Shown in pieces: positions 19,072 through 50,212 of a DNA stretch of 64,000 nucleotides. The stretch lies in assembly GCA_944388145.1 (NCBI GenBank), contig CALXHQ010000001.1, positions 62,001 to 126,000 on the forward strand, given 5' to 3'. This DNA comes from an uncultured Gemmiger sp. GTDB taxonomy: Bacteria; Bacillota; Clostridia; Oscillospirales; Ruminococcaceae. The stretch's first letter is position 1, and every line of letters begins with the position of its first letter. Under the pieces are notes generated by a model. It searched no databases and was not told where the DNA came from. It saw only the letters and a list, made by a program, of their open reading frames with translations. Position numbers and translations under genes: made by a program.

Positions 19072-20259
19072 TTACAGTATTACCGGTTTAGCAGTGTACA
19101 CAAGTCCTGCGGGCAGCGGCTTCTCGCGGCAGAGGGCGGACAGATCCGCAAAACGGCTGTACAGGTCGGCCAGGCCCGCGGCCTGCGGCGAGGTCCGCGC
19201 CAAATCCGCCAGTGAGGTGGCTGCGGGAAGCGCCGCATATCGCAGCACTGGCAGCGCTTGCCGCCGAGCCCCCAGGACATGAAGAAAAGGCGGGGGTTCC
19301 GGCACGCAGTCGGCACGAACGTCCAGCGCTGCATCCAGCACCAGGCGGCGCAGACGGGCGTGGGGATAGCGCTTTGTCTTGAGCAGAGCGTACAGTTCCG
19401 CGGCGGTACCGGCCCTTTGCACCGCCGTATACAGGCGATTTTCCAGTCCCTCAGACAGGCCGCGTGTGCTGGCAAGTTCCTGCCTGCTTTTGCCGCGCAG
19501 ACGGCTGAGCAGCGCCACCGAGAACTTGTCCGGGTCCAGCAGCTGGCCCCCGGCGGCGGCAGTGCGGTACAGCTCTGCCGCCTGGCTGGGGACAAACGGT
19601 GCGGCAGCCTCCATGCCAAGGAGACGGATCTGTTCCCGCAGATGGCTGGCAGAAGCAATGGCGCGTCCCTCCACCATACCGGTTTCATCCGTATTGTGTC
19701 CGGCGGCAAGGCGGGGCAGCGGCAGCGGCACCATATGGCTGTCCTGCCGCAGGATGGCCTTGCAATACTCCACCCCCAGGATATTGTTTGGCCGGCGGAG
19801 CAGATCCCCCATACCAGGCAGCAGTTGATCGGCAGCGTCCGCCCGGGCCGCCGCAAAGGTCTGCCCCCTTGCCAGCCTTGCGGGCAGCAGCCGGGTCAGC
19901 GCCGGACCCGCCACCAGCCCGGCCGCCTGGAGGAGCAGGTCTGCATCCGGCGTCTCTGCGCCAAAGGCCAGGGTATCGCACCCCAGTGCCGTGAGCAGCG
20001 CCACACCGGCAGCGGCAAATCCCTCGGCCCCCAGGCAGGCATAAGGGGCCGGCAGAGCCACCACAATGTCCGCCCCGGCCTGGAGCGCAGCCCGCACCCG
20101 CACCGGGCCAGGCAGCACAGGAAAGCTGCCCCGCTGCACGGCGGCATGGCTCATACAGACGGCGATTTTATGTGCGCCGGCAGCACGCAGCATCCGCAAC
20201 TGGCGGGCATGGCCATTGTGGAACGGATCATATTCGGCGATAATGCCCGCAAATTCCAT
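19072..20259 (-). CDS. tmcAL: tRNA(Met) cytidine acetate ligase (TmcAL/YlbM)
   Basis: TmcAL uses acetate and ATP to acetylate C34 of elongator tRNA(Met). The 395-residue protein begins MEFAGIIAEYDPFHNGHARQ, whose HxGH nucleotidyltransferase motif (HNGH) is the ATP site. RRPNNILGVEYCKAIL is the second conserved block. The ATG at 20259 follows TAGGAGGC; sequence further upstream is open but carries no family homology. It is divergent from ackA. Acetate kinase handles the same small molecule, acetate, and this neighbourhood is common in Firmicutes. Confidence 0.93.
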   Translation of the reverse strand: MEFAGIIAEYDPFHNGHARQLRMLRAAGAHKIAVCMSHAAVQRGSFPVLPGPVRVRAALQAGADIVVALPAPYACLGAEGFAAAGVALLTALGCDTLAFGAETPDADLLLQAAGLVAGPALTRLLPARLARGQTFAAARADAADQLLPGMGDLLRRPNNILGVEYCKAILRQDSHMVPLPLPRLAAGHNTDETGMVEGRAIASASHLREQIRLLGMEAAAPFVPSQAAELYRTAAAGGQLLDPDKFSVALLSRLRGKSRQELASTRGLSEGLENRLYTAVQRAGTAAELYALLKTKRYPHARLRRLVLDAALDVRADCVPEPPPFLHVLGARRQALPVLRYAALPAATSLADLARTSPQAAGLADLYSRFADLSALCREKPLPAGLVYTAKPVIL

Positions 20260-20461: not shown

Positions 20462-21709
20462 ATGAAAGTCCTGGTTATCAACTGTGGTTCTTCCAGCCTG
20501 AAGTACCAGCTGATCGAGATGGAAGGCGAAAAGGTGCTGTGCAAGGGCCTGTGTGAACGCATCGGCATGGAAAGCAGCATGATCACCCACGAGGCCAACG
20601 GGAAAAAGGCCACCACCCCTGCCATCTTCCCCACCCACAATGAGGCTTTCCTGGAGCTGGTCAAAAAGATGACCAGCGGCGAGGGCAAGGTCATTGACAG
20701 CATTGATGAGATTGACGCCATTGGCCACCGCGTGGTCCACGGCGGCGAAAAGTTCAAGAAAAGCTGCCTGATCACCCCCGAGGTTATCCAGGCTATCCGC
20801 GACTTGAGCTCGCTGGCGCCGCTGCACAACCCCGCTGCCATCCTGGGTATCGAGGCCAGCTACAAGGTGTTCGGCCAGGACAAGCCCAACATTGCGGTGT
20901 TTGACACTGCCTTCCACAGCACCATGCCCCCCAAGGCCTATATGTACGCCATCCCCTACGAGTACTATGAAAAGTACGGCGTGCGCCGTTACGGCTTCCA
21001 CGGCACCAGCCACAAGTATGTCAGCCATCGTGCCGCCGAGTATCTGGAAGAGCCCATCGAACGCCTGAAGCTGATCACCTGCCACCTGGGCAACGGCTCC
21101 TCCATCGCCGCTGTTGACCAGGGCAAGGTGGTGGATACCTCCATGGGTATGACCCCGCTGGCCGGCCTGATGATGGGCACCCGCTGCGGCGACCTGGACC
21201 CCTCGGTGGTGAACTACCTGAAATACACTCTGGACATCACCGGCCATCAGCTGGACGAGATCCTGAACAAGAAGTCCGGCCTGCTGGGCGTTTCCGGCGT
21301 GTCCAGCGATATGCGCGACGTGGAGGTCTCCGCCAAGCAGGGCAACGAGCGTGCACAGCTGGCACTGGATATGCTGAACTACCAGATCAAAAAGACCATT
21401 GGCAGCTATATTGCGGCCATGGGCGGTGTGGACGCCATCATCTTTACCGGCGGCATCGGCGAGCATGACGATGAATCCCGCGCCAAGATCTGCCACCATA
21501 TGGACTGGCTGGGCATCCGCATTGACACGGATAAGAACAGAGATGTGCGCAACCAGCACAAGGACGTGGTGGAGATCACCGCCTGGGGCGCCCGTGTCCG
21601 CACCCTGGTTGTGGAAACCAACGAGGAACTGATGATCGCCCGCGATACCCGCGACGTGCTGAAAGAAATGACCGAGGAACCGGCCGCGGAAGCTTCGGCC
21701 GAGGCATAA
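20462..21709 (+). CDS. ackA: Acetate kinase
   Basis: AckA interconverts acetyl phosphate plus ADP with acetate plus ATP, the energy-yielding end of acetate fermentation. The 415-residue protein has VLVINCGSSSLKYQLIE at the N-terminus, RRYGFHGTSHKYVS, TCHLGNGSS, DTSMGMTPLAG, MMGTRCGDLDP and FTGGIGEHD. It is a little longer than usual because of an acidic Ala/Glu tail. The ATG lies behind AAGGAGG. No phosphotransacetylase gene is adjacent, which differs from many clostridial pta-ackA operons. Confidence 0.97.
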   Translation: MKVLVINCGSSSLKYQLIEMEGEKVLCKGLCERIGMESSMITHEANGKKATTPAIFPTHNEAFLELVKKMTSGEGKVIDSIDEIDAIGHRVVHGGEKFKKSCLITPEVIQAIRDLSSLAPLHNPAAILGIEASYKVFGQDKPNIAVFDTAFHSTMPPKAYMYAIPYEYYEKYGVRRYGFHGTSHKYVSHRAAEYLEEPIERLKLITCHLGNGSSIAAVDQGKVVDTSMGMTPLAGLMMGTRCGDLDPSVVNYLKYTLDITGHQLDEILNKKSGLLGVSGVSSDMRDVEVSAKQGNERAQLALDMLNYQIKKTIGSYIAAMGGVDAIIFTGGIGEHDDESRAKICHHMDWLGIRIDTDKNRDVRNQHKDVVEITAWGARVRTLVVETNEELMIARDTRDVLKEMTEEPAAEASAEA

Positions 21710-40158: not shown

Positions 40159-40422
40159 TTACTCGGAGAAGCCAGACTCAACCAGCTTGACCAGGCCGTC
40201 CACAGCAGCCTGCTCATCGGTACCATCGGCAATGATGCGGATGGTGGTGCCGCCGACGATACCCAGGCTCAGCACGCCCAGAAGGCTCTTGGCGTTGACA
40301 CGGCGTTCCTCTTTCTCGACCCAGATCGAAGATTTGTACTCGTTCGCCTTCTGGATAAAGAAGGTAGCCGGACGGGCGTGCAAACCAACCTGATTCTCAA
40401 CGGTAACTTCTTTCACATACAT
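40159..40422 (-). CDS. ptsH: Phosphocarrier protein HPr
   Basis: HPr passes phosphate from enzyme I to sugar EIIA proteins. The 87-residue protein has H15 in VGLHARPAT, the catalytic histidine, and S46 in VNAKSLLGVLSLGI, the site HPr kinase uses for carbon-catabolite control. H15 excludes a Crh-type paralogue. The ATG at 40422 follows GGGAGAG. Enzyme I and HPr kinase are not in the window. It stands alone between a promoter and a terminator, unlike clostridia where an HPr gene lies beside whiA. Confidence 0.95.
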   Translation of the reverse strand: MYVKEVTVENQVGLHARPATFFIQKANEYKSSIWVEKEERRVNAKSLLGVLSLGIVGGTTIRIIADGTDEQAAVDGLVKLVESGFSE

Positions 40423-40521
40423 AGTTATTCTCTCCCATTTCGAAAATAATATGCCCAAGCATTCACCGCGGGCTTCCTCAGGCGGCATTGCACATCTGTT
40501 CTTCCGCTCTGAATTGATTTT

Positions 40522-40679: not shown

Positions 40680-41927
40680 TCAGTCGTCCATTTCGCTGTC
40701 CCTCAGCTGTGTACGGACGAGTTTTTGCTCCCGCACGCGGTTTGTAAAAGTTTGGTGTGCCTCCGGCGAAACCGCCGGTGTGCCCGCCTCCTCCCGGTAG
40801 CCCATGCGCAGGTACAGCGCAATGGCAGGGCGGTTGGTTTCCAGCACAGTCACAAACGTACGCGTGTGTTCCGGCAGCTTTTTTTGGGCAAAGGCCAACA
40901 GCTTTGCCCCGATCCCCCTGCCCTGCGCTGCGGGGGACACGTACAGCCGGCCGATCTCGCCGGTTTTGTGGCAGACCCCCACAATGGCGTCCGGCTTCCC
41001 CGCCGTGCTGTGCAGGTAAAATGCCCAGCCGGCAGTGCGGTCGGCCTCCAGCCGCTGCCGCATGGCTTCCGGCGTGTGTTCGGCCAGAAAGTCCGGCGTG
41101 CAGGCCTCCCGGTGGGACATCTGCCAGCTTTCACTGTAAATTTGGGCGGCGGCAGCCAGCTGTTCCCCTGTCCGAACCAGCGCGGCGCGCTCGCTGCGTT
41201 TCCAGCGCGCGGGGGTCAGCGGGTGGGTGCGGCACCATTCCTCATACAGGTCGGGGCGGCGTTCGGCGGTGCGGGCATGGCTCTGCTTGGCCCGCCAGGC
41301 ATCGATTCTGGTATGGTCGCCGGTGAGCAATACCGAAGGCACCGGGCGGCCCTCCCAGATTTCGGGGCGGGTGTACTGGGGATATTCCAACAGGCCATCC
41401 CAGTAGCTTTCCTCCTGGTAGCCTTTCTCCTCGGCCAGCACACCGGGCTGCAGGCGAAGCACGCTGTCCGCCACCACCAGGCTGGCCAGCTCGCCGCCGG
41501 TGAGCACATAGTCGCCGATGGACAGTTCCTCATCGCCAAAGGCATCGATCACCCGCTGGTCGATCCCCTCATAGTGGCCGCAGACCAGCGTCAGGCTGTC
41601 GCAGGCGGCCAGCCGGCGGGCAACCCCCTCGTTGTAGGGCCGGCCGGCAGCGGTCAGAAAAACCACATGGGGCCTGCCGCGCCCCTGGGCGGCACACTGG
41701 GCCTGGACCTCCCGCAGGCAGTCGGCGATGGGCTGGGCGTACAGCACCATACCACAGCCGCCGCCGTAAGGGTAATCGTCGGTCTGCTTCTGCTTGTTTT
41801 TGGTGTAATCCCGGATCTGGTGACAGTGTGCCTCGAACAGATTTTTGGCCGCCGCACGCCCCAGTATGCTGGCGTGCAGGAAACTGTCGCACAGCTCCGG
41901 GAAGAGCGTCACAATGTCAATTCGCAT
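40680..41927 (-). CDS. trmD: TrmD tRNA (guanine-37-N1)-methyltransferase fused to a GNAT acetyltransferase
   Basis: The 415-residue protein is about 170 longer than normal TrmD. Residues 1 to about 235 are a complete SPOUT methyltransferase that makes m1G37: MRIDIVTLFPELCDSF, YGGGCGMVLYAQP, LVCGHYEGIDQR, SIGDYVLTGGE and LLTGDHTRID. Residues about 245-385 are a GNAT domain with the acetyl-CoA loop RLYVSPAAQGRGIGAKLL and the late ETNRPAIALYLRMGY strand-helix. The frame is continuous, with no stop or start signal between the parts. The ATG lies three bases after rimM. The acetyltransferase substrate is unknown. A sequencing error that joins two genes is unlikely but would look similar. Confidence 0.92.
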   Translation of the reverse strand: MRIDIVTLFPELCDSFLHASILGRAAAKNLFEAHCHQIRDYTKNKQKQTDDYPYGGGCGMVLYAQPIADCLREVQAQCAAQGRGRPHVVFLTAAGRPYNEGVARRLAACDSLTLVCGHYEGIDQRVIDAFGDEELSIGDYVLTGGELASLVVADSVLRLQPGVLAEEKGYQEESYWDGLLEYPQYTRPEIWEGRPVPSVLLTGDHTRIDAWRAKQSHARTAERRPDLYEEWCRTHPLTPARWKRSERAALVRTGEQLAAAAQIYSESWQMSHREACTPDFLAEHTPEAMRQRLEADRTAGWAFYLHSTAGKPDAIVGVCHKTGEIGRLYVSPAAQGRGIGAKLLAFAQKKLPEHTRTFVTVLETNRPAIALYLRMGYREEAGTPAVSPEAHQTFTNRVREQKLVRTQLRDSEMDD

Positions 41928-41930
41928 AGG

Positions 41931-42461
41931 TCACTCCTCGTCGCCGTTGACCGGCGTGTCGAACATGCCGGGGATGGGGTTGACCAGCACCTGGCGGGTC
42001 TCAATGTCAATGCGCACCACAAACTCCGGCACGACAGGAATCATATGGTCACCACCGGCGGCATCCCGCACCGTGTAGATATCCTGCGCGGCCGGATGAC
42101 TGACCTCGGTGACGGTGCCGTACTCCCGGCCGGTGGCAGCATCCACCACTGCGCAGCCCAGTACGTCATCAATAAAATAGCGGCCCTCCGGCAGCTTTGC
42201 CTCCCGCTTGTCCAGATAGAGGGTGCGGCCCACCATGGCGCGGGCTGCATCCATATCGGCAACGCCTTCCAGCCGGACCAGCAGCATATTGCCCTGGGCG
42301 CGCACCCCCAGCAGTTTGCGGGGACCGTCGCCATCGGCGGAGGTGTACAGCATTTTGAAGCCGGACAAAAAACCGGCGCCGTCGCACAGCGGCAGGGCTT
42401 TCATCTCGCCGCGGACGCCGTGAGTGGTGACAATTTTGCAGGCGGGCAGATAGGTTTGCAT
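41931..42461 (-). CDS. rimM: Ribosome maturation factor RimM
   Basis: RimM helps 30S head assembly by binding S19. The 176-residue protein has the N-terminal barrel (ACKIVTTHGVRGEMKALPL) and the PRC-barrel half (EGRYFIDDVLGCAVVDAAT, HMIPVVPEFVVRIDIETRQV). The ATG at 42461 follows AAAGGAG. It lies 83 bases after khpA, across an internal terminator, and three bases before trmD. Confidence 0.95.
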   Translation of the reverse strand: MQTYLPACKIVTTHGVRGEMKALPLCDGAGFLSGFKMLYTSADGDGPRKLLGVRAQGNMLLVRLEGVADMDAARAMVGRTLYLDKREAKLPEGRYFIDDVLGCAVVDAATGREYGTVTEVSHPAAQDIYTVRDAAGGDHMIPVVPEFVVRIDIETRQVLVNPIPGMFDTPVNGDEE

Positions 42462-42495
42462 GGAGTTCTCCTTTGATTTTGATCTGTACAAGCGC

Positions 42496-42529
42496 CAAAA
42501 AAGGCACCCCGCACCGTTCGCGGAGTGCC
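42496..42529 (-). terminator. Internal terminator between khpA and rimM
   Basis: GGCACTCCGC pairs with GCGGGGTGCC (42529-42520 with 42512-42503; one mismatch), followed on the minus strand by TTTTTT (42502-42497). It lies within the rpsP-khpA-rimM-trmD unit and should lower rimM-trmD relative to rpsP. Confidence 0.85.
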
Positions 42530-42544: not shown

Positions 42545-42778
42545 TCAGCCGATCTCCACCACGACTTTTTCGCCATGGCGGACGGCGGCGGCCCGCATCA
42601 CAACACGGATCGCCTTGGCGATGCGGCCCTGTTTGCCGATCACACGGCCCATGTCATCCTCAGCCACAATCAGGTGGTAGACGACGGTGCCATCCTCGCG
42701 CACAGGGTCGACTGTGACCTGCACCGCTTCCTTGTTTTCCACAAGGCCGCGGGCAACAGCAATCAGCAGTTCCTGCAT
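42545..42778 (-). CDS. khpA: KH-domain RNA-binding protein KhpA
   Basis: A 77-residue KH-domain protein (YlqC type) with the RNA-binding GxxG loop at 48-51 in MGRVIGKQGRIAKAIRVVM. KhpA dimerises with KhpB and binds many RNAs, affecting cell shape in other Firmicutes. The ATG at 42778 is 18 bases after the rpsP stop, the standard rpsP-khpA-rimM-trmD order. Confidence 0.95.
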   Translation of the reverse strand: MQELLIAVARGLVENKEAVQVTVDPVREDGTVVYHLIVAEDDMGRVIGKQGRIAKAIRVVMRAAAVRHGEKVVVEIG

Positions 42779-42796: not shown

Positions 42797-43036
42797 TTAC
42801 AGGATCTCGGACTTCTTCAGCAGAACGCGAACGGTATCGGTGGGCTGAGCGCCGTTTGCCAGCCACTGCTTGGCCTTCTCAGCGTCGATCTTGACGACAG
42901 AGGGCTCCTTGGTGGGATCGTAGTAGCCGATCTCCTCAATGAAACGGCCATCGCGGGCGTAGCGGCTGTCGGCAACGACAACGCGGTAGAAGGGGGCTTT
43001 CTTGGCGCCCATACGGCGCAGACGAATCTTGACCAT
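42797..43036 (-). CDS. rpsP: 30S ribosomal protein S16
   Basis: A 79-residue S16 with [39 protein letters not shown] and [16 protein letters not shown]. It is needed for 30S central-domain assembly. The ATG follows TGGAGG. It lies 99 bases after ffh, a gap in which I find no clear promoter or terminator, so ffh read-through is possible. Confidence 0.98.
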
Positions 43037-43135: not shown

Positions 43136-44485
43136 TCAGCGCATGCCGCGGAAGCCGGGGATGCTGCTCAAGCGGCGCATAAAGCCCTTAGGGTTGCGCT
43201 TGACCTGTTTCATCATTTTCTGCATCATTTCATACTGACGCAGCAGCTTGTTGACTTCCTCCACCGTGCGGCCGCTGCCGGCGGCAATACGGCGCTTGCG
43301 CTTGGGATTGATGATGGAGGGCTTGGCCCGCTCCTCCGGCGTCATCGAATAAATAATCGCCTCAATATGAGGCAGCGCCTTCTCGTCCAGCTGATCCACA
43401 TCCACCTTGGCGCCGGCACCGCCGGGCAGCATGGAGAGCAGCGCCGAAGCACCGCCCATCTTTTTGATCTGCTGAAACTGGGCCAGCATGTCGTTCAGGT
43501 CGAACTTGTTGGCCATCATCCGCTTGGCAGTTTCTTCGGCTTGTTTTTCGTCCTGGGTGGCCTGAGCCTTCTCGATCAGGGAAAGCACATCGCCCATGCC
43601 CAGGATACGGCCTGCCATGCGGGCGGGATAGAAGGGCTCCAAATCATCCAGCTTTTCGCCGATGCCCTGAAAGTAGATGGGCTTGCCGGTGACGGCCAGC
43701 ACCGAGAGGGCCGCACCGCCGCGGGTATCGCCGTCAGTCTTTGTCAGGATAACGCCATCAATTCCCACCTTCTCGTTGAAGGTCTTGGCCACATTGACGG
43801 CCTCCTGGCCAGCCATGGCATCCACCACCAGCAGGCTGTAATCCACTTCCACCGCCTGCTTGATGCGCACAAGCTCATCCATCAGGGTATCATCAATCTG
43901 CAGCCGGCCGGCGGTATCAATAATGACGATGTCGTTGCCATGGTCGCGGGCATAGGCCATGGCCTTCCGGGCGATGTGTTCCGGTTTTTCGGTGCCCATC
44001 TCAAAGACGGGGACGCCGGCCTGCTCGCCCACAATGCGCAGCTGGTCGATGGCGGCGGGGCGGTAAATATCGCAGGCCACCAGCAGCGGGCGGCGGCCCA
44101 GCTTTTTGTAATACTTTCCCAGCTTGGCTGCATGGGTGGTTTTGCCGTTGCCCTGCAGGCCGCACATCATCAGCACGGTCTGGCCCTTGTTTTTGATGCG
44201 CAGCTGCTGGGGATCGTCGCCGCCCATCAGGCGGGTGAGTTCCTCGTTGACGATCTTGACCACCTGCTGGGCTGGGGTCAGGCTTTCCATAACCTCCTGG
44301 CCCATGGCCCGTTCAGACACCTGGCTGCAGAAATCTTTTGCAACCTTGTAGTTGACATCGGCTTCCAGCAGGGCCATGCGCACTTCCCGCATGGCAGCCT
44401 TGATATCCGCCTCGCCCAGCTTGCCTTTGCCGCGGAGTTTTTTGAAAACGCCCGAAAGGCGCTCGGTCAAAGATTCAAATGCCAT
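43136..44485 (-). CDS. ffh: Signal recognition particle protein Ffh
   Basis: Ffh binds SRP RNA and signal sequences and targets proteins to FtsY. The 449-residue GTPase has an N-domain (LTERLSGVFKKLRGKGKLGE) and a G-domain with MMCGLQGNGKTTHAAKLGKY, DIYRPAAIDQL, IIDTAGRLQID and LTKTDGDTRGGAALS. The Met-rich M-domain follows (MMANKFDLNDMLAQFQQI, LLRQYEMMQKMMKQV). The ATG overlaps the ylxM frame by 11 bases, with its ribosome binding site inside ylxM. Confidence 0.97.
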   Translation of the reverse strand: MAFESLTERLSGVFKKLRGKGKLGEADIKAAMREVRMALLEADVNYKVAKDFCSQVSERAMGQEVMESLTPAQQVVKIVNEELTRLMGGDDPQQLRIKNKGQTVLMMCGLQGNGKTTHAAKLGKYYKKLGRRPLLVACDIYRPAAIDQLRIVGEQAGVPVFEMGTEKPEHIARKAMAYARDHGNDIVIIDTAGRLQIDDTLMDELVRIKQAVEVDYSLLVVDAMAGQEAVNVAKTFNEKVGIDGVILTKTDGDTRGGAALSVLAVTGKPIYFQGIGEKLDDLEPFYPARMAGRILGMGDVLSLIEKAQATQDEKQAEETAKRMMANKFDLNDMLAQFQQIKKMGGASALLSMLPGGAGAKVDVDQLDEKALPHIEAIIYSMTPEERAKPSIINPKRKRRIAAGSGRTVEEVNKLLRQYEMMQKMMKQVKRNPKGFMRRLSSIPGFRGMR

Positions 44486-44873
44486 TGGGCGTTTCCTCCT
44501 GTGTGGTGAGACGCTCCACGATGGCCAGCATCTCGTCGGTATCCTGCTGGATGCGGGGCACCGGCGTGAACAAGCCGGAATTGCAGCAGCGCACCTCCCG
44601 GATCAGCTGCTCCAGCCGTTCCAGATCAGCCAGCATGGCCTGATGGCGGCGGGCGTTGCCGATCTTTTCCTCCATCTGGCGCAGAGTCGCCTCACCATGC
44701 TTGATGGCATCCCGCACCCCCTGACGGGAGATGCCGAAGTTTTCGGCTATCTCAGAGAGGGAGAGATCCTCGTCGTAGTATTCGGTGAGGATCTCTCGCT
44801 GGCGTTGGGTCAGCACAGGGCCGTAGTGGTCCAGCAGGATGGAATATTCCAGATCCTTTGGAGTCTGTGCCAA
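44475..44873 (-). CDS. ylxM: YlxM-family SRP-associated helix-turn-helix protein (UPF0122)
   Basis: A 132-residue sigma-factor-like helix-turn-helix protein: LLDHYGPVLTQRQREILTEYYDEDLSLSEIAENFGISRQGVRDAIKHGEA is the family block. YlxM proteins stimulate the Ffh GTPase in Gram-positive SRP. The start is TTG 44873 behind GGAGGGC. It is translationally coupled to ffh by an 11-base overlap. A consensus promoter lies at 44967-44939. Confidence 0.93.
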   Translation of the reverse strand: MAQTPKDLEYSILLDHYGPVLTQRQREILTEYYDEDLSLSEIAENFGISRQGVRDAIKHGEATLRQMEEKIGNARRHQAMLADLERLEQLIREVRCCNSGLFTPVPRIQQDTDEMLAIVERLTTQEETPNGI

Positions 44874-44938: not shown

Positions 44939-44967
44939 ATTATAGCAGAGGCAGGGGCCGGTGTCAA
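44939..44967 (-). promoter_or_regulatory. Consensus sigma-A promoter of ylxM-ffh
   Basis: On the minus strand TTGACA (44967-44962), 17 bases ending in TGC and TATAAT (44944-44939) match the full consensus with an extended -10. A palindrome GTAAAGC-GGGAT-GCTTTAC follows at 44930-44912 in the leader. Confidence 0.92.
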
Positions 44968-46305: not shown

Positions 46306-49300
46306 TCATTGCCTGTTGCGGCGGTACAGCAGCACCCCCAGCAGACTGGCCGAAACCACCGCAGCAGCGAGCAGCCCGGCAAGAGGGTAACGATCCCCTG
46401 TCTGGGGGACAGCCAATGCAGACGCCGCAGGGGTCTGCGCCGGCTGCCGGGAATCCGCGGGCTGCGTTTGGCTCGCGGGGGTTCCGGGCTGCGGTGTGGC
46501 GGATGCGGGCGGTTCGCTGGTCCGGTTTTCAAACTCCGCGCCGGTTGCCGTCTCCGGGGAAGGCAGCACAGTGCCATCGGCATCCGCCACCCGGGTTAGG
46601 CTGGTGAGCGCCGCGGTCAGCACACCCTTGCCGTCATCTGTCACTGTGATGGCAGCCTCGTAGCGGGAAAGGTCCTTGGTAACCCCCTGATCCGCCAACG
46701 AGGCCGCATCTCCCATCTCGGTGATAGTGTAATAATAGGTGCCGGGAATGCTGTCCAACAGCGCCCGGGCTGTGTCCGGAGCCAGACGTGCGGCCTGTTC
46801 GGCGGTGAGGCCCGCCAATGTGGCCCGGGCGGGCTGAGGTGCCCGGCGGACAGCCTCGGCAGCCGGGCCGGACGGGGTCGAAGTCTCAGGGGTACTCGGC
46901 AGGGTGGGCATTGGCGTGGAATCGGAGGTTTCCGGCGTGGCGAGGGCCGTCTCCTGTGTGGCGTGCCCCGGGTCGGCAGGGCTGCTTTCCGGCGTGGAGA
47001 CCGGTTCTGGAGCGGCAGGATACTCAGCGGCACGGCTGCGCAGGGCATCCAGCACAGCGGCGTCCAGCAGGCGGCTGAAATTCAGCACGAAATTGCCAGC
47101 GGGTACCCCTTGGCTGAGTGTCAGTTCCGTGGCGGTGATGGGGATCGCCGCGTTGAGATTGTTATCCGCGCGGCTGGCCGGTGCGATGTGGAAGGTGTAG
47201 CTTTCCCCCGGCAACCAGGTATCCCGGTAGCCGGACAGGGTCTTGTACACCGGAATGCGCAGCACCTGTGCATCCGCGGCAAACTGCGCCCGATAGGCGT
47301 TGGTGAAGGTGATCATGGCCGGGTCTGCGGCAACGCTGCCGGCAAAGCTGCGGTTTGCGGCGTCAAAGCTGCCAATTCCGGCGGGCACCGTGCTGACGGA
47401 ATCCAGCACGAATCCGTCGGGGGCAGTTGACTCCTGTACGGTGAAGGAAGTGTTCTGCATATCGGGTATGGTGAGGATGTCCCCCGGCTGCAGGGTGAAA
47501 TCCGCATTGCCCCCACCATCGAAGGCAAGCGGCTCGGTGGAAGTACTGCCCTGTGTACTGCGGGTGGCGGTGATCGTCTGCCCCGCCTTGGAGGCCACCG
47601 TAAGGGTGAACCCGAAGCTGGTTCCGGCGGGGATATCCAGCCCGGCATCCGCCGTAACAATCTTGGCGATGCTCAGCGCAGCCGGGGCCGCCAGGGCCAG
47701 CCGCCCGTTGTTGCCCTGGAAGGCGTTCAGCACACCGCCCGGCTGACTGCCCGTGGTGTAAATGGGGTAAAAGCTAGCTTGTGCCGTCTGGGTCAGATTG
47801 CCCTGGCCCTTTGTGCGGATCAGATCGGTCAGATTGCCCAGACGGGGCGCATCCGCGCGGATATACCAGCCGCCGGCGTCCCTGGCCACATTGTCCTGCA
47901 GGGTAATGCCCATGCGGCGGATAACATAGGTTTCCGATTGTACGGTCTCCCCCGCCCCGGCATAGTAGTCATCCTTAAAGTAGTAGTAGCGGTCCGGGTC
48001 AAAGCTGGCGTCGTTTGCCCGGATGGTACAGGCTGAGTCGGTATACAGCGGGGTGTTTTCCTGCAAAAAATAGAACGGGTTGGTGGAGGCAGGCTCAAAC
48101 TCCACAGTGGCGTTTCCCACCGTGATGCCGTCCTCTGCATTGCCGGAATAGCGGTTGGCGTAAAAATAGACCTGGTTTGTGGCTGGGTCGGTGTGGGCTG
48201 CCAGATAATCCGGCGTGACGCCGCCGGTATCTGGATTGGTGTTCAGCGTCCCGTTCGGATCGGTAACGCCGGGTTTAAGCCCCACCGTGTAGCAGACACG
48301 GAGCGGGAACGCGCCGTTGGAGACGTTATCCACCGGCAGATCCTCCGGATTCAGGGTAACGCTGTTGACCCGGATGGGAATGGCCGAGGCGGGCACCGCC
48401 ACATGAAGGGTCTGGTCTCCGGCGGCGTCCTCATCCACATAGACGAGGATGTCGTTCACATTGCCGCGGCCGTAGACCTGGCTGTCAAAGTTTTTGTTGC
48501 CGTTTGCATCCGAAAAATGCCCTGTATAGACATAGCGGACACCGCCGCCCGGTTGGGGCTGCGGGGTTGGGGTATAACCATTGTCCAGGTCAAACTGGAT
48601 GCCGGCCCACAGGATGGTCTTGACCGAGTTCACCTGCATATACTGCCCGATGGGGTCCCGGTAATAGATATAGCCGCTGTGCACAGGATCATTGTTTTCC
48701 ACACGGGTGGGGCCCTGCGCTGAGCTGGTGATATTGTTGACTATACGGCTGAAGGCATTCCACAGAGCGTCGGCATCATCCGCAGCAAAATAGGCGTCCG
48801 GGTACACCAGCGTTGTGGGATTGTAAGGTTCCGGCGCCACATCCGCTGTATAGGATTCCTCCCGGCCCGACTGGGTGTACTGCACCTGCGGGGCTGTACC
48901 GGCAAGATATTGCTGCCAGGCTGTGTTGACCGCATCCACGGCAGGGGTGCCGGTGGCCGTATAGTTGTTGCCGGCATCCCAATGCCGGCCGGGTTCCAGC
49001 ACCAGGTCCGCCATGTTAACCATGGCCTGGTTCTGCTGGCTTGTCATAAAACCGATGGTAAAAACGCGGGCGCTCTCCCCCGGCTGTGCATTGGGGTAGT
49101 AATGGGCCGTCACGGCGTTTTTCATGTAAGCAGCTGTCACCAGCGGCAGAAAGCCGTTGCCGCTGTGCGGGGTGTTGTTGTCGCCGGACCCGATGGGGGT
49201 ATTCTCGATGCCCGCCCACCACTCTCCGCCGGTGATTGCCCGGGAAAAGGTGGTGGGAGCGCCGTCCGACATAAGGATCAGGTTTGGCACACGGGTGACC

Positions 49301-50067
49301 ATCTGATTCTCCACTTCCACCTGGGTGTCGGTGGCATTGAGCAGCATCTGCATGCCGAAATAGATGCCCGCATGAATGTTGGTGTAGGAATCCAGCGGCA
49401 GGGTAACCTGGTCGATATTGCAGGTCACCCGGACATTATTGTTATTGCCGTCATCCTGGCCGGGGGTGGCATTCCAGTAGGTTATGGCAAGATAGTCCTT
49501 GTCTGGCCGGGCGCTGACAGAATTCAGGTTCAGCATGGTGGATGCACCGCGATTGAACACAACAATGCCAATGCGATTATTTTCGTTGGCCTGCACCAGC
49601 GCGTCAATGGCGTTGTTGATACCGTCCACCATCGCCTGCACACGGCTTTCCGCCTGGGTGGTGACGGTACCTTGGCCGTTCTGATACTGGCCCCAGGCCA
49701 TACTGGCGGAGAAATCCAGCACAAAAACCACATCCACCGGGGCGGTGCTCTCGGATATGATTTGGGTGGAGGTGGCCAGTGCCGAGTAGGTGACCAGAAA
49801 GTCCGAATCATTTTCCACGGTGATGGTACCGGCGTCACCGTCAAACTGGATGTTCCCGGTGGAGACAGATTTATCCGTCCAGACGCGGCCATCCAGCAGG
49901 GTGGAATCGTCATCTCCCAGGCTGATGGTGAAATCATTCCGGGTATCGGCATCGGCTACGCGGACAGCACCCGGTGTGGGCGCCGCCTGTGCAGCGGGAA
50001 GAATGCCGCACAGCAGTGTCCCCGCAAGGGCCAGCGCTGCAATGCGGCGCAGCGGTGAAATTGACAT
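46306..50067 (-). CDS. Sortase-anchored vWA-domain surface protein (adhesin-like)
   Basis: A 1253-residue exported protein. Residues 1-28 are a signal peptide ending AQA. A von Willebrand A domain starts near 112 with the metal-site D118-F-S-A-S (VVFVLDFSASMAWG) and LMSDGAPT. Middle beta domains follow (YIYYRDPIGQYMQVNSVKTI). Near the C-terminus is a SpaA/Cna-B-like region (FTLQPGDILTIPDMQNTSF) and an FctA-like region ending YYYTITEMGD. A Pro/Thr/Ser linker precedes the sorting signal V1220-PQTG with a hydrophobic helix and RRNRQ tail. This resembles pilus-tip or mucus adhesins. Its sortase is not nearby. The ATG at 50067 follows AAAGGA. No isopeptide bond can be proved from sequence. Confidence 0.88.
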   Translation of the reverse strand: MSISPLRRIAALALAGTLLCGILPAAQAAPTPGAVRVADADTRNDFTISLGDDDSTLLDGRVWTDKSVSTGNIQFDGDAGTITVENDSDFLVTYSALATSTQIISESTAPVDVVFVLDFSASMAWGQYQNGQGTVTTQAESRVQAMVDGINNAIDALVQANENNRIGIVVFNRGASTMLNLNSVSARPDKDYLAITYWNATPGQDDGNNNNVRVTCNIDQVTLPLDSYTNIHAGIYFGMQMLLNATDTQVEVENQMVTRVPNLILMSDGAPTTFSRAITGGEWWAGIENTPIGSGDNNTPHSGNGFLPLVTAAYMKNAVTAHYYPNAQPGESARVFTIGFMTSQQNQAMVNMADLVLEPGRHWDAGNNYTATGTPAVDAVNTAWQQYLAGTAPQVQYTQSGREESYTADVAPEPYNPTTLVYPDAYFAADDADALWNAFSRIVNNITSSAQGPTRVENNDPVHSGYIYYRDPIGQYMQVNSVKTILWAGIQFDLDNGYTPTPQPQPGGGVRYVYTGHFSDANGNKNFDSQVYGRGNVNDILVYVDEDAAGDQTLHVAVPASAIPIRVNSVTLNPEDLPVDNVSNGAFPLRVCYTVGLKPGVTDPNGTLNTNPDTGGVTPDYLAAHTDPATNQVYFYANRYSGNAEDGITVGNATVEFEPASTNPFYFLQENTPLYTDSACTIRANDASFDPDRYYYFKDDYYAGAGETVQSETYVIRRMGITLQDNVARDAGGWYIRADAPRLGNLTDLIRTKGQGNLTQTAQASFYPIYTTGSQPGGVLNAFQGNNGRLALAAPAALSIAKIVTADAGLDIPAGTSFGFTLTVASKAGQTITATRSTQGSTSTEPLAFDGGGNADFTLQPGDILTIPDMQNTSFTVQESTAPDGFVLDSVSTVPAGIGSFDAANRSFAGSVAADPAMITFTNAYRAQFAADAQVLRIPVYKTLSGYRDTWLPGESYTFHIAPASRADNNLNAAIPITATELTLSQGVPAGNFVLNFSRLLDAAVLDALRSRAAEYPAAPEPVSTPESSPADPGHATQETALATPETSDSTPMPTLPSTPETSTPSGPAAEAVRRAPQPARATLAGLTAEQAARLAPDTARALLDSIPGTYYYTITEMGDAASLADQGVTKDLSRYEAAITVTDDGKGVLTAALTSLTRVADADGTVLPSPETATGAEFENRTSEPPASATPQPGTPASQTQPADSRQPAQTPAASALAVPQTGDRYPLAGLLAAAVVSASLLGVLLYRRNRQ

Positions 50068-50212
50068 GGTTCGATCGTCCTTTCCTGTTGGCGTGCGGGC
50101 AGAGACTGGAGCCGCAGGAGTTTTTGCGGCTTCAGTATAGCGCACCATCAGGGAAAAGGCAGTCGAAGCCTGGCAGGGTTGCGGGAACTATGGGCCGTGC
50201 GGGGGAAAGGCG

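Follow-up and report, generated by a model that had tools for sequence, protein, structure and literature searches.

A tRNA methyltransferase TrmD fused to a GNAT acetyltransferase domain in Gemmiger, and GNAT domains as recurrent partners of TrmD in Clostridia

TrmD is an antibiotic target, and the 1-methylguanosine that it makes at position 37 of tRNA (m1G37) guards the reading frame. In a published study (PMC1829167), its catalytic residues are given as E116, R154 and D169. The closest described system is the TrmD-Tm1570 fusion (PF01746-PF09936; PMC1829167, PMC11187310), which is reported to be a homodimer that still modifies tRNA. Here, we report on a trmD gene whose frame continues into a GNAT acetyltransferase domain. 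It lies in a stretch of 64,000 nucleotides, hereafter the window, from an uncultured Gemmiger sp. (assembly GCA_944388145.1, contig CALXHQ010000001.1, positions 62,001 to 126,000). The gene and its parts, in coordinates of the window, are the following:

40680..41927, minus strand: trmD-GNAT fusion gene, 415 codons plus stop, without internal stop; ATG at 41927, GAGGAG upstream
41226..41927, minus strand: TrmD domain, residues 1-234 (SPOUT domain and C-terminal helices), by Pfam, NF000648, model and PDB matches
41193..41225, minus strand: linker, residues 235-245, by alignment and model
40785..41192, minus strand: GNAT acetyltransferase domain, residues 246-381, by profile, selection, model and fold
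40908..40925, minus strand: acetyl-CoA loop QGRGIG, residues 335-340, by the pattern [QR]xxGx[GA]
40683..40784, minus strand: variable C-terminal tail, residues 382-415, by alignment, substitution ratios and model

A first-pass annotation had described one 415-codon frame holding a full TrmD and a GNAT, each with its limits, and an acetyl-CoA loop. The open reading frame and the Pfam matches bear this out, on the minus strand. The family tRNA_m1G_MT (PF01746) matches residues 23-225 with 177 bits, and the NCBIfam equivalog models of TrmD are both passed (NF000648: 291.1 bits, cut-off 220; TIGR00088: 271.7 bits, cut-off 195). This is the only TrmD match in the genome. Acetyltransf_1 matches residues 263-377 with 51.7 bits against a cut-off of 20.7, which places the second domain in the GNAT superfamily. 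The acetyl-CoA loop belongs to the string SPAAQGRGIG (residues 331-340) and sits, in the predicted model, between a strand (324-330) and a helix (339-349). Profiles and predicted structure show an ordinary TrmD in the N-terminal half and, in the C-terminal half, a GNAT whose acetyl-CoA loop is intact. When mapped through the Haemophilus influenzae chain, E120 and R158 align with the published catalytic residues E116 and R154, and E173 takes the position of D169. Column 173 is at least 90% Glu in a 55-row alignment (three rows of which are GNAT-only); the change from D169 to Glu is therefore common to the clostridial TrmDs aligned. AlphaFold returned a mean predicted local distance difference test score (pLDDT) of 91.3 and a predicted template modelling score (pTM) of 0.77 for the whole chain, and 92.1 and 0.87 for the GNAT alone. 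A fold search with the whole chain gave only TrmD entries among the 50 matches listed, including the solved TrmD-Tm1570 fusion (PDB 8b1n), and the GNAT was therefore fold-searched alone. The gene almost certainly encodes one chain with two folded domains.

The fusion is not peculiar to one assembly. We searched 61 genomes, 35 of them from the genus, including that of the window (genomes are labelled G and loci L). The match runs unbroken from TrmD into the GNAT in 32 of the 35, and in two others (G023 and G017) the junction is in open frame on broken contigs; G030, which is 82% complete, gave no TrmD-GNAT match. The same domain order is thus kept among relatives, and the frameshift or stop at the junction that might have separated the domains was looked for and not found in 34 of the 35 genomes. 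Neither chance nor sequencing error can explain the fusion, and its unbroken recurrence speaks against an assembly error.

Both halves bear signs of function. In an alignment of 27 of the 32 unbroken fusions (G015, G010 and G034 were omitted as near copies, and G011 and G029 gave no locus), the acetyl-CoA pattern is present in 27/27, and so are the linker residues P236, W242, K243 and R244, together with E246 of the first strand. The linker block has pLDDT values of 94 and 97. The median pairwise ratio of nonsynonymous to synonymous substitution rates (dN/dS) is 0.121 for TrmD and, within the GNAT, 0.295 for the core and 0.461 for the N-terminal part; the C-terminal tail gave no median, its closest pair standing at 0.242/0.357. 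These ratios indicate purifying selection on the GNAT core. That the GNAT might be translated separately was considered and rejected, as no conserved internal start codon was found near the junction in the 27 genus members (the best column between residues 215 and 300 is ATG in 13/27). We consider the GNAT very probably selected and competent.

Among 245 genomes of the order, this GNAT, which we call type A, was found fused to TrmD in two only: that of the window and G637, which belongs to a different genus of the same family. G602, which is listed in the genus of G637, gave no match. In the TrmD tree, which has no G602 row and some deep branches that are unsure, all 17 fused rows lie on one side of a branch (support 92/87; recovered in 88% of 200 bootstrap trees). 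Unfused loci L002, L003, L004 and L005 lie just outside. Since the tree groups all fused rows, the type A fusion most likely arose once. Several of the nearest named loci carry the label Faecalibacterium.

In Clostridia, TrmD also serves repeatedly as the N-terminal part of fusions. TrmD was present in 380 of the 391 clostridial genomes sampled, with frame lengths read for about the 155 best matches. Surveys with a TrmD profile found a C-terminal extension of at least 100 amino acids in 14/142 genomes of the order and 12/144 of the class with TrmD; the two surveys share some genomes, only frames of about 296 amino acids and longer were inspected, and one of the 14 (G464) was counted from its 548-amino-acid frame and from G039 and G479 of the same genus. 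The expectation of the first-pass annotation that TrmD is almost always of about 240 residues and free-standing is thus less true in these bacteria. With a profile of fused proteins, both domains were spanned in G000, G316, G054, G172 and G246, among the roughly 155 best matches listed for the 391 genomes. When the loci were pooled, tails of at least 80 amino acids formed 15 clusters; 16 kinds result when type F, which joins type A by a weak match only (24% identity over 72 amino acids), is kept apart. Five or six of these kinds are GNATs, mutually distant, and six kinds have no significant Pfam match:

GNAT type A: the fusion of the window
GNAT type B: L007, L009 and L193 intact; L048, L146 and L182 decayed
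GNAT type C: L027, L145, L238
GNAT type D: L065, 50% identical to a free-standing GNAT
GNAT type E: L142, L192, L198
GNAT type F: L144
Cysteine desulfurase (NifS/IscS-like): L012 and L239 by scan (Aminotran_5, 252 and 263 bits); L040, L069 and L204-L207 by clustering
Aldose epimerase: L147 by scan; L210 by clustering
Phosphomannomutase: L149
Tyrosine phosphatase: L209
Tails of 97-455 amino acids without significant Pfam match: L191, L194 (not scanned), L195; L200-L202; L074; L022

The TrmD-cysteine desulfurase proteins, which occur in several clostridial families, unite a tRNA methyltransferase and a likely sulfur donor enzyme in one frame. In G112, which carries L209, the TrmD match is itself in two pieces.

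GNATs are more frequent among these partners than their share of genes would give. Acetyltransf_1 has 128 matches in 21.7 Mb of ten genomes, about 0.6% at one gene per kb; the genome of the window has 25 such matches, and we set the share of GNAT genes at about 0.6-1%. Six GNAT kinds out of 16 give a binomial tail of 3.5e-10 at 0.6%, a figure that assumes independent events and random partners. The partner count pools loci found differently. When type A (the type of the query), type D (biased, as L065 was found with a query that contained a GNAT) and type F (doubtful) are left out, 3 of 13 remain, giving 5.9e-5 at 0.6% and 2.0e-3 at 2% under the same assumptions. We rejected the GNAT as a usual neighbour of trmD: a separate GNAT gene was sought with profiles built for this analysis, and none started within 1.5 kb downstream of trmD (some loci reach less) in 101 loci without a GNAT fusion, left from 110 loci after the removal of 3 with less than 500 nt of downstream sequence and of 6 already fused to a GNAT. 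A ready-made GNAT neighbour is thus not an evident reason for the fusion. At L065, which is itself GNAT-fused, a further GNAT-like frame follows 142 nt downstream.

As a whole, we tentatively favour the reading that the product is a true bifunctional protein, a TrmD joined to an amine-acetylating GNAT. The TrmD half would dimerise and make m1G at position 37 of tRNA as usual, and the GNAT half would act as an acetyl-CoA-dependent N-acetyltransferase of a PaiA-like kind. Its target might be a primary amine, either a polyamine or small molecule or a protein lysine, and the short conserved linker would keep it beside the tRNA and ribosome-maturation machinery. Profile and fold comparisons both incline towards amine acetyltransferases of the PaiA type: the best solved relative of the GNAT by profile, and near-best by fold, is PDB 1tiq, the polyamine N-acetyltransferase PaiA of Bacillus subtilis (the NCBIfam name holds the same substrate). 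Taken by itself, an amine substrate is possible and rather doubtful. An Orn/Lys/Arg decarboxylase is fused to a relative of the GNAT of the window at L152:112-1920. As a polyamine clue, this fusion was weakened by its occurrence in only one of 22 genomes (about 1.5 kb or less judged on each side). The neighbours of two free-standing GNAT relatives, read by eye without family search, have no common theme.

Several observations weigh against this reading. The GNAT is over the cut-off of no specific family tested (RimI, PaiA); for the PaiA family NF053587 it reaches 21.1 bits where 250 is required, and in a single-sequence search PaiA appears only at 0.036. Moreover, the main rival is a serious one, and we regard it as a real possibility: TrmD would fuse to adjacent genes, and the GNAT would be a passenger that keeps an unrelated job, its expression tied to trmD. 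The many unrelated partners, from cysteine desulfurase to the six kinds without Pfam match, are in line with such a process, and so is the restriction of type A to one clade. The GNAT-B tails of L048, L146 and L182 have no recognisable GNAT domain and stand on an intact TrmD; these decayed copies in one lineage show that a functional link is not always needed. A passenger is, however, harder to reconcile with the over-representation of GNAT kinds, even when reduced to 3 of 13, with the lack of a downstream GNAT in the 101 loci and with the invariant linker residues. That TrmD has been joined to several unrelated GNATs speaks for a functional link, and this repeated fusion suggests that selection favours the coupling of acetyl-CoA chemistry to TrmD rather than one particular substrate.

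A broader form of this idea is that at least five lineages of Clostridia convergently put different GNATs on the C-terminus of TrmD, so that m1G37 formation would be tied to an acetylation, whether its target is tRNA, TrmD or a partner bound to tRNA; we consider it unlikely in this full form. Less likely again, the GNAT might acetylate TrmD itself or sense acetyl-CoA, tuning m1G37 synthesis to metabolism. This would explain both the indifference to GNAT subfamily and the short, conserved linker.

The first-pass annotation had proposed an acetylation tied to tRNA, to ribosome assembly or to a nearby protein. Such a tie may exist, and two concrete forms of it were examined, the replacement of TmcAL and that of RimI. 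It is improbable that the GNAT acetylates a tRNA delivered by TrmD, for instance near positions 34-37. The tether to an anticodon-loop enzyme and the basic invariant residues of the linker would suit such a role, and some GNATs, such as TmcA and TacT, modify RNA or aminoacyl-tRNA. Nonetheless, different lineages use unrelated GNATs, and Pfam detected no RNA-binding domain other than TrmD in the fusion protein. TmcA-type RNA acetyltransferases have a helicase-like domain in the same chain, and no Pfam match to it was found in the fusion protein up to an E-value of 1. TmcAL, the enzyme of such bacteria that forms N4-acetylcytidine at position 34 (ac4C34), is present in 27 of the 28 genomes tested and missing only in G316; as all ten genus members tested have it, its replacement by the fused GNAT is not supported. 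The TmcAL homologue of the window (19141-20259, minus strand) is divergent from a frame that reads as acetate kinase (20462-21709, plus strand), and TmcAL uses acetate.

A link to ribosome assembly would be given if the fused GNAT had taken over the job of RimI and acetylated bS18, which we consider very unlikely. RimI (TIGR01575) is the best NCBIfam model for this GNAT, the fold Z to RimI is 17.0, and no RimI over cut-off was found in the 35 genus genomes (G000-G034), against 20 of 26 relatives from the family and order. However, the score of 36.0 bits is below the cut-off of 86.4, and RimI over cut-off is equally lacking in the genomes of the unfused L002-L005, whose completeness is not stated; RimI loss thus predates the fusion on the TrmD tree. 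Five of six other genomes with a fused or decayed GNAT retain RimI (L009, L048 with its decayed GNAT, L027, L065 and G054); the sixth, that of L007, showed none, but amounts to only 1.2 Mb. G637, G316, G172, G520 and G246 were left out of this comparison. Replacement of RimI is therefore not supported as a general reason for the fusions, and by this fused GNAT it is weakly possible. Finally, an assembly or frameshift artefact can be dismissed, as the same frame recurs across the genus.

The neighbourhood of the fusion gene is composed of the following features:

40159..40488, minus strand: ptsH (HPr), next downstream of the fusion
41931..42491, minus strand: rimM, directly upstream of the fusion gene
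42503..42529, minus strand: terminator-like hairpin in the khpA/rimM interval, 11 pairs then TTTTTT (consensus match only)
42545..42778, minus strand: khpA (KH domain)
42797..43036, minus strand: rpsP (bS16)
43136..44485, minus strand: ffh (SRP54)
44475..44873, minus strand: ylxM-like regulator (UPF0122)
44939..44967, minus strand: promoter-like site upstream of ylxM, 12/12 consensus bases (consensus match only)

On the same strand, the order is ylxM-like, ffh, rpsP, khpA, rimM, trmD-GNAT and then ptsH, the fusion ATG being 3 nt past the rimM stop. The first-pass annotation had placed the fusion in an rpsP-khpA-rimM unit; this gene order, trmD included, is confirmed by reading frames and families, but the hairpin between khpA and rimM makes it uncertain that rpsP and trmD share one transcript. 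This strong hairpin falls inside a set of genes usually regarded as one operon. The region has 8 terminator-like sites, against 5.9 (standard deviation 2.8) in shuffled sequence. Elsewhere in the window, a frame at 46306-50148 (minus strand) encodes a 1280-amino-acid protein of surface type; it has VWA, DUF7601 and FctA isopeptide domains and, at its C-terminus, a QTGD-like sorting motif.

If the GNAT affects TrmD, common gut bacteria would have translation fidelity tied to their acetyl-CoA status. Moreover, the recurrence with unrelated GNATs has left fused, unfused and decayed forms in nature, a series on which such a coupling could be tested. The first-pass annotation knew of no described role for the fusion, and our literature search by title and abstract, with most subscription papers outside its reach, agrees in finding no published account of a TrmD-GNAT fusion.

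Compared with free-standing TrmD (TIGR00088/NF000648), the protein of the window reaches the full equivalog score and is identical at two of the three catalytic positions, and differs in continuing into a GNAT where the former ends near residue 240. Its GNAT is like PaiA in being closest by profile to that solved structure, and differs in its distance from the PaiA family cut-off and in its fusion, as PaiA is not fused to TrmD. With RimI it shares the GNAT fold and the best NCBIfam model, but it falls below the cut-off and the presence of RimI does not track the fusion. TrmD-Tm1570 likewise carries a second enzyme domain at the C-terminus of TrmD in one chain; its second domain is, in contrast, a SPOUT methyltransferase, and its named examples come from other lineages. 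No PF09936 follows TrmD in the protein of the window, whose C-terminal Pfam matches are GNAT families only. A TrmD with a second C-terminal enzyme is thus already known from TrmD-Tm1570, and the GNAT as its partner is new to the literature searched.
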